A stretch of 41,412 nt of DNA. Origin: Bacillota bacterium (GTDB taxonomy: Bacteria > Bacillota > Sulfobacillia > JAJYWN01). The DNA is taken from the NCBI GenBank assembly GCA_021791495.1, contig JAJYWN010000070.1:1-41412 (forward strand), given 5' to 3'. The translations under genes and the position numbers were made by a program. This document shows positions 2,530 to 41,412 of the stretch, piece after piece; within the stretch, counting starts at the first letter, position 1; every line of letters begins with the position of its first letter. Under the pieces are notes generated by a model. That model did not search any database, was not told where the DNA came from, and worked only from the letters and a program-made list of their open reading frames with translations.

Positions 2530-3623
2530 AGCTCTTCTTGGGCGTGGACGTCGGCTCGGTCAGCACCAACATGGCCTTCGTCGACGAGGCCGGTGAAGTC
2601 TCAGATACCCTGTACCTGCGCACCGACGGGAATCCCATCCGCGCCATCCAGGACGGACTTCGGACCATGGCGGAAAGCCTGCGGCCGGGCGACCAGGTGG
2701 CCGGGGCCGGCAGCACCGGCAGCGCCCGGCTTTTGGCCGGCGTGATGCTGGGGGCCGACGTGGTGAAGAACGAGATCACCGCGCATGCCGTCGCCGCCTT
2801 GAAAACAGTCCCCGATGTCCAGACAGTCATCGAGATCGGGGGGCAGGACTCCAAGATCATCATCATCCGCGACGGGGTGGTGGTGGACTTCGCCATGAAC
2901 ACCGTGTGTGCCGCCGGTACCGGGTCTTTCCTTGACCACCAGGCGGCCCGCCTGAAGATACCCATCGAGGAGTTCGGCGCCATCGCCCTGCGCGCCAGGC
3001 ACCCGGTGCGCATCGCCGGCCGTTGCGGGGTCTTCGCCGAGTCGGACATGATCCACAAACAGCAGGCCGGGCACTCGATGGAGGACATCATCGCCGGCCT
3101 GTGCGAGGCCTTGGTGCGAAATTACCTGAATAACGTGGCCAGAGGCAAACCCATTCACGGACCGGTGGTCTTTCAGGGCGGCGTGGCGGCCAACGCCGGC
3201 ATCCGCGCCGCCTTCGAGAAGACCTTGGGGCAGCAGGTGATAGTCCCCCGCGAACACGGAGTAATGGGCGCCATCGGCGCCGCCATCCTCGCCAAAGAAG
3301 CTACGGAGGCCGCGGGGGCGGCTGCGGGGGCGAGCGCGGGCGCGACCGCCGTTACAGGCTTCAAGGGGTTCACTGTGTCGGATGTGGCCTTCCGGACCAC
3401 GAGCTTCGACTGCAAAGCGTGCGCCAACCAGTGTGAAGTGGTCCAGTTCTGGGCCGGCCGAACGGTGGCGGCCCGCTGGGGCGACCGCTGCGGGAAGTGG
3501 AGCCAGGGGGGCGGGCGGGATCTGCCGCGCGCGGCGAGCGCCTCGTCTAGAGAAGCGGAAGCACCCGCGACCGTGTCGGCGGATGCTTCGTGTGATGGCT
3601 GTGACGGAGTGGCTCAGGCCTGA
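2526..3623 (+). CDS. acyl-CoA dehydratase activase (BadF/BcrA/HgdC ASKHA ATPase)
   Basis: A 365-residue ATP-dependent activator that injects an electron into its dehydratase partner. ASKHA motifs are clear: GVDVGSVSTN (6-15), GSTGSARLL (62-70), IGGQDSKI (104-111) and AAGTGSFLD (129-137). Cys128 and Cys167 (GRCGVFAESD) fit the pair that holds the inter-subunit [4Fe-4S] cluster in HgdC. A C-terminal extension carries CKACANQCEV and a further RCGK, the Cys segment that links activase and DUF2229 parts in the large fused activase proteins, so this is a split form of that architecture with reversed gene order. An Ala/Gly-rich insertion (about 258-278) precedes it. It starts with GTG in a GTGA overlap with the upstream stop, so translation is coupled. 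The family call is firm; the substrate is not known. Confidence 0.88.
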   Translation: MKLFLGVDVGSVSTNMAFVDEAGEVSDTLYLRTDGNPIRAIQDGLRTMAESLRPGDQVAGAGSTGSARLLAGVMLGADVVKNEITAHAVAALKTVPDVQTVIEIGGQDSKIIIIRDGVVVDFAMNTVCAAGTGSFLDHQAARLKIPIEEFGAIALRARHPVRIAGRCGVFAESDMIHKQQAGHSMEDIIAGLCEALVRNYLNNVARGKPIHGPVVFQGGVAANAGIRAAFEKTLGQQVIVPREHGVMGAIGAAILAKEATEAAGAAAGASAGATAVTGFKGFTVSDVAFRTTSFDCKACANQCEVVQFWAGRTVAARWGDRCGKWSQGGGRDLPRAASASSREAEAPATVSADASCDGCDGVAQA

Positions 3624-13443: not shown

Positions 13444-13496
13444 GGAATGGTCGGAGTCGTCGGAGCGCCATTGGGGGGTATCCGGTCGACCTAGCC

Positions 13497-13856
13497 GTCG
13501 CAAGTCAAACCGGGATACTTTCTTGGAGAACCCAGGGTGTCTTGGGTTTACCCGCATTCCCGGACGGTCCTTCAAGGGCGACCGTCGCCCATCAGCGAGC
13601 GGCGTGTGAGACAAAGCCTGCAACATTCCAGCAGGTACAGCACGTCATCCCAGAGCCTTTCGGTTTCCCAGAGTACTGGCAAGGGGCGCGGCCGGATGGA
13701 TGGACCACTCGACGGCGCCCCTCCAGGGGCTCTGAGGAACCCCACGGGGTATTCAAAATACCCCCATGGGGTATACCGAAACCAGGCCGGGTAAACCCAA
13801 GACACTCCCGCCCTCCGCGAAAAGTGTCTGGAGTTGACTCTCGCGGTTTTTGGGCC
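13497..13856. mobile_element. MITE-like element with about 55-bp inverted ends (copy 1)
   Basis: The left end (13501-13553, plus strand) and right end (13789-13845) are imperfect inverted copies. Innermost are the exact complements GGGTTTACCC (13544-13553) and GGGTAAACCC (13789-13798). Each end contains its own short stem: GATAC (13514-13518) with GTGTC (13537-13541) on the left, and GACAC (13801-13805) with GTGTC (13824-13828) on the right. A GTCAA-type motif lies at the outer edge. The interior is 235 bases without a gene. Inside the right end is a hairpin cluster with CCCCACGGGG and TACCCCCATGGGGTA-type palindromes (13740-13777). No transposase is present. Confidence 0.6.
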
Positions 13857-40993: not shown

Positions 40994-41412
40994 GTCTTGA
41001 CTCAATCGGACGATATTGGAAGAGATTCAGTATCCGATAAGCAATCAACTCCTTTGTCCGTCGTGTAACGAGGGACAACTGACCCCTGAATGCCATTCCG
41101 CCCGTGATTTTCGCCAAGGCGCGGTAGCAACCACAGGTGGAGTCAATCCCAGATACCTTTCGCGAATTGACAGGGTATCTTGGGTTTACCCCCCTTCGCG
41201 GAACCATACCCCGGGGGGGTATTGGAAAGCCCTTTCGGACCTTTGCTGCCGACTGTCGGAACCCACCGTCCCCCGGACTGTCGCGCTATCCGGGAACGCG
41301 AACCTGGACCCGTGCTTTCTAGCAGCAGAAAGGAAAGCAAGGTCGCGTGATCCTCACCTCGAGAGACCTGCCGCCTCCTCGTGAAAGTCGGCTCAATGGG
41401 CGGGGGTAAACC
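40994..41412. other. Intergenic end of the window, mostly a repeat element
   Basis: No gene is seen. About 130 bases of unremarkable sequence follow the peptidase stop, and the rest is the second MITE-like copy, which the window edge cuts. Confidence 0.6.
41131..41412. mobile_element. MITE-like element (copy 2), cut by the window edge
   Basis: The left end (41138-41191) matches the right end of copy 1 as reverse complement: GAGTCAA, the stem GATAC (41152-41156) with GTATC (41175-41179), then GGGTTTACCC (41182-41191). Just inside, ATACCCC and GGGGTAT form the same hairpin as in copy 1. After a 212-base interior the window ends in GGGTAAACC (41404-41412), the first nine bases of the opposite inner inverted repeat. 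The interior has no gene and little similarity to that of copy 1. Confidence 0.55.

Follow-up and report, generated by a model that had tools for sequence, protein, structure and literature searches.

The repeat that occurs twice in the analysed stretch of DNA (hereafter the window, the whole 41,412 bp of contig C20 of the source genome G000) is probably a worn-out non-autonomous transposon, placed beside gene terminators that were duplicated in the process. With a probability of roughly 0.7, we assign it to an old, MITE-like family of DNA repeats, private to the source genome, whose members were inserted at terminators by a trans-acting transposase with duplication of the terminator hairpin. 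In what follows, repeat loci are labelled L001, L012 and so on, and contigs of G000 are labelled C4, C5 and so on; the window copy is L012.

The window copy spans positions 13473–13845 on the plus strand, as delimited by covariance model R1 and blastn, and contains the core only, i.e., a left block, a private interior and a right block. Model R1 scored 70.9 bits at 13473–13556, and blastn found similarity only at both ends (13473–13553 and 13758–13840); the interior has no detectable similarity to other copies. Judged from its sequence, this copy is a member of a divergent subfamily that has only the hairpin ends in common with the main subfamily. On the plus strand, a G-run followed by GGGTATCC at 13473–13483 makes up a conserved block that flanks the left hairpin on its outer side; in alignment A1, columns 2–4 (GGG) and 6–11 (GTATCC) are invariant in 22 copies. 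It is followed by the left imperfect hairpin at 13501–13554 (arms 13501–13518 and 13537–13554), the palindrome ATACCCCCATGGGGTAT within the right end at 13758–13774, and the right imperfect hairpin at 13788–13841 (arms 13788–13805 and 13824–13841). The loop of each hairpin is 18 nt, and both were defined by alignment and pair counts. Within the right-end palindrome, ATAC and GGGTAT are invariant in the 22 copies of alignment A2.

The second copy, found by blastn and by reading the sequence, lies on the minus strand at 41073–41412 and belongs to the main subfamily. Only its right part is present, the left hairpin being cut by the contig end. It is 80% identical (blastn) to query positions 169–528 of a 547-bp copy on C5, and the sequence ends in CGGGGGTAAACC. 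Its right hairpin (41139–41192, minus strand; arms 41139–41156 and 41175–41192) was recognised by sequence, blastn and covariance model, and its palindrome ATACCCCGGGGGGGTAT (41206–41222, minus strand) was read directly from the sequence and compared with alignment A2. An earlier sequence-only reading had placed three such ends in the window, two of them as an inverted pair at 13.5 kb. All three are in place, with exact motif matches at 13537–13553 (minus), 13789–13805 (plus) and 41175–41191 (minus), against a chance expectation of 0.13 for the window; at 13.5 kb, the pair forms an 18/18 inverted repeat. The third end (41138–41191) is indeed present, but it belongs to another copy, of which it forms the right half: the contig-cut one at 41073–41412 on the minus strand. 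The end of the window (41402–41412) and the start of contig C44 (C44:1–164) both break within one conserved 17-mer of the repeat; the fragment that opens C44 may be the missing left half of the second copy, and C20 and C44 may be neighbours.

Genome-wide counts were obtained by a pattern search for GGGTAAACCCAAGAYAC with up to two mismatches, with the reversed motif as control. In the 4.2 Mb genome, 47 matches were found (22 forward and 25 reverse), compared with none for the control; the repeat is real. The search gave 22 complete inverted pairs with a spacing of 230–285 bp. With nearly all matches paired, and with partial copies added by blastn using one full copy as query (three of these at contig ends), the repeat amounts to about 25 dispersed, intergenic copies, of which full-length ones of about 547 bp were found by blastn on C5, C62, C44, C35, C4 and C49. 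Contigs C6, C20, C44 and C78 have copies at their ends. A simple codon-usage gene caller predicted no gene overlapping the repeat in any of 22 copies, and every arrangement relative to neighbouring genes is seen among them. As in MITEs, there are many dispersed copies without a coding gene. The proposal of a MITE-like element is well supported: the copies are dispersed, intergenic and ORF-free, they have inverted ends, the flanks are duplicated in several of them, and the subfamilies have common ends but different interiors.

The anatomy of the unit emerged from comparing the flanks of the inverted pairs outwards to find conserved boundaries. In the main subfamily, the unit measures about 547 bp and is bounded by 11-bp inverted repeats, TTGTTGACAAA and TTTGTCAACAA. 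Its left side consists, in order, of TTGTTGACAAAG..., a left arm measuring some 100 bp, the G-run with GGGTATCC and the left 55-bp hairpin. Then come an interior of 160–215 bp, the palindrome ATACCCCCCTGGGGTAT and the right 55-bp hairpin, after which a second hairpin (CACCCGTGGTTT...AAACCACGGGTG) leads to ...TTTGTCAACAA. The two 55-bp imperfect hairpins face inwards and are inverted relative to each other, and GGGGTAT stands 5' of both on the same strand. The 55-bp sequences, initially described as the termini of the element, are in the main subfamily subterminal hairpins inside the larger unit; inverted ends, as in MITEs, are the outer 11-bp repeats in full-length copies and the subterminal hairpins in all copies. 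A TTCGCGAAA-like centre, likewise put forward as a common feature, is not family-wide; variability is highest in the right-hand loop (34% divergence). An ordinary terminator pair was rejected, since a T-tract is missing from the 55-bp hairpins.

Of the 11 genomic occurrences of TTGTTGACAAA, 9 fall within repeat copies. The other occurrences were considered as autonomous elements and rejected: one, on C54, is a solo end next to a hairpin, and one, on C22, is a distant relative at a contig end. The outer arms are missing in several copies, which start at the G-run or end after the right hairpin (the window copy, L015 and L034, where visible), and, as a point against the preferred reading, either the G-run or TTGTTGACAAA/TTTGTCAACAA may be the mobile boundary. 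The end blocks of L012 and L034 are common with the main family, and their interiors have no detectable similarity to it or to each other; the copy on C28 has lost its interior wholly.

Outside the 11-bp outer repeats lies a G+C-rich terminator-like hairpin, with its stem 0–7 nt from the repeat. At 23 outer ends, the adjoining 45 bases on the outside have a median folding energy of −20.2 kcal/mol, compared with a mean of −12.5 kcal/mol for random 45-mers of the window (p=4e-9), and 74% of the 23 ends fold at −18 kcal/mol or below, compared with 12% of the random 45-mers. A check of the copy borders for duplications, as suggested earlier, found flank hairpins of about 20–32 bp directly repeated in at least three copies, namely L005 (28/32 bases), L019 (24/28) and L024 (18/20), each scoring above every mismatched left/right pairing. 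Target site duplication is clear in these three. The match between left and right hairpins is weaker in L001, yet above its mismatched pairings; it does not exceed them in L020, and the comparison failed to give a match in L028. In the remaining copies, the window copy included, any duplication may have been lost. It counts against the preferred reading that no more than three copies have convincing hairpin duplications, and that these are of palindromic G+C-rich sequence. The right-hand hairpin of L005 and L024 lies ahead of a gene start and not at a gene end, a position more in keeping with duplication than with a terminator belonging to a second gene. As a separate observation, L028 has its right end broken by a group II intron domain V (46 bits), which stops precisely where the outer end of the repeat lies, beside a hairpin site. 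This domain V (L036:1431–1500, the same as G000 C62:72911–72980) is the only one found in the genome, and an IS200-like fragment apparently adjoins it at L036.

In its target behaviour the repeat family can be seen as resembling IS1630, an IS30-family element of Mycoplasma fermentans (Calcutt et al. 1999, cited in PMC3317919), whose reported targets are inverted repeats that vary in sequence and are duplicated on insertion. The duplications reported are 16–26 bp (PMC3317919), to which the duplicated hairpins of about 20–32 bp may be likened. The resemblance to IS30/IS1630 in targeting and duplicating inverted repeats is one of behaviour only: IS1630 encodes an IS30-type transposase of its own and has terminal repeats of 27 bp, whereas the repeat is ORF-free, with 11-bp terminal repeats and subterminal 55-bp hairpins, in a genome without an IS30 transposase. 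Bacterial MITEs (e.g., QMITE2; PMC10969869) are likewise short, gene-free and intergenic, with inverted ends, direct repeats and stable folding, but the repeat differs from them in being G+C-rich and not A+T-rich, in its 547 bp with nested hairpins, and in a flanking duplication that comprises a whole terminator hairpin.

A transposase with the same terminal sequence had also been suggested as a check; the draft genome (81 contigs) yielded no transposon with these ends. IS30 was rejected as the parent, with no match to profile NF033563 in the genome. IS1634 was considered because a transposase fragment, EVFPGNTADPLTV, is fused to the L003 and L029 copies; its transposase is represented by four remnants, mostly partial or interrupted, and with no full-length parent and no matching ends among them it was rejected as well. 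The IS1634-type fragment lies on the left side of these closely related copies (about 1280–1410 in L003, the left flank in L029), and was apparently captured and then copied with them. Palindrome-associated elements derived from IS200/IS605, as well as REP/BIME sequences, have imperfect hairpins near their ends, as the repeat family does. The copies might thus be elements of the IS200/IS605 type, moved as single strands by a hairpin-recognising Y1 transposase, in agreement with the imperfect subterminal hairpins at both ends, with GGGGTAT 5' of both on the same strand and with the Y1 transposase genes present in the genome, mostly partial or interrupted. However, blastn of the genome found no repeat copy at or linked to a Y1 locus, the hairpins are paired in inverted orientation, no tetranucleotide is shared at the G-run boundary, and the flanking hairpins are duplicated, whereas IS200/IS605 elements produce no target duplication. 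We find this origin distinctly unlikely. Since IS30 is absent, and the IS1634 remnants and Y1 genes lack these ends, the mobilising enzyme is taken to be lost, unassembled or unrecognised.

For the preferred terminator-inserting, MITE-like family, we propose that a transposase supplied in trans would recognise the subterminal hairpins, the terminal repeats or both, and that copies would insert at gene terminators. The terminator hairpin, about 20–32 bp, would be duplicated at insertion, which would leave the upstream gene with its terminator; with the source of the transposase gone or out of sight as described, the copies would now be decaying. By landing next to terminators and duplicating them, the family seems to spread harmlessly. 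To our knowledge, few insertion sequences choose their targets in this way.

It had been claimed that the stem arms vary together and that compensatory change points to selection on a folded single strand. Scored on 22 copies, each hairpin separately and against shuffles, neither claim finds support. The left hairpin has 86.5% paired cells compared with 85.9% in shuffles, and the right hairpin 82.8% compared with 82.7%, with a covariation score of 0.071 compared with 0.074; each contains one doubly changed cell. At the T-A/C-G position of the right ends, T-G occurs 11 times, T-A 7 times, C-G twice and C-A twice, i.e., GACAC stands opposite GTGTC twice and opposite GTATC twice, so that with C the partner and the mismatch are equally frequent. 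The hairpin ends are real, but the apparent covariation is a false impression from three sequences, and the folded-RNA reading built on it is unsupported; such covariation can disappear once all copies of a family are tallied.

Even so, conservation within the repeat is highest in the stems, and copy-specific changes are rarer in the inner stem arms (8/680, 1.2%) than in the centre (124/4519, 2.7%; p=0.013), which is compatible with end recognition and perhaps a mild later constraint. This depletion, and the fact that both strands fold far better than shuffles, would also suit a multicopy structured RNA (an sRNA or cis-regulatory leader) with stems selected as RNA. Folding of both strands is, however, expected of any inverted repeat, and the lack of covariation beyond shuffles, the variety of orientations to neighbouring genes, the sharing of only the ends between subfamilies, an empty Rfam scan of the window and a window copy without a promoter-like or terminator-like site make a structured RNA improbable. 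A known RNA family was rejected, with Rfam on the family copies matching only a neighbouring riboswitch or intron. Two matches lie near one copy, at L035:2835–2983 (minus) and 3108–3367 (plus): an FMN riboswitch scoring 83.7 bits and a weak T-box-like one that, at 43.6 bits, stays below gathering.

The nearly invariant stem arms and left block, with their scarcity of copy-specific changes, could alternatively mark a fixed, non-mobile regulatory or chromosomal site, such as a protein-binding palindrome kept by the host. The nested, truncated sharing of arms, interiors and outer sequences is typical transposon debris, the flanks are duplicated, and the repeat was not found in the three genomes of the same order, all of which speaks against such a site and makes it very unlikely. 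Within the mobile reading, a lineage-private family whose enzyme reads both hairpin ends and hairpin targets and copies intrinsic terminators, with stems later kept for host use (e.g., as transcription barriers), is a rather doubtful extension.

Relatives were sought well beyond the source genome. None was found by blastn in the 100 nearest genomes; the covariance model, run over 154 genomes of the class, matched only the source genome and none of the 153 others; two patterns run on GTDB contigs gave only four isolated 18-mers, with no covariance-model match at that site; and IMG/VR pattern scans found no relative. Because the GTDB and IMG/VR scans require exact matches and the nearest genomes compared are from another family of the order, private here means private at this sampling. 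The family has apparently not been described before in the collections searched. Pairwise identities among copies range from about 95% (L003/L007/L029) to below 80%, and the family is therefore considered old. At the end of C22, L079:1577–2151 is the distant relative mentioned above: it opens with a terminator hairpin and TTGTTGACAAAGG, has GGGGGGTATCC 260 bp inwards, and gives a weak model match of 16.5 bits.
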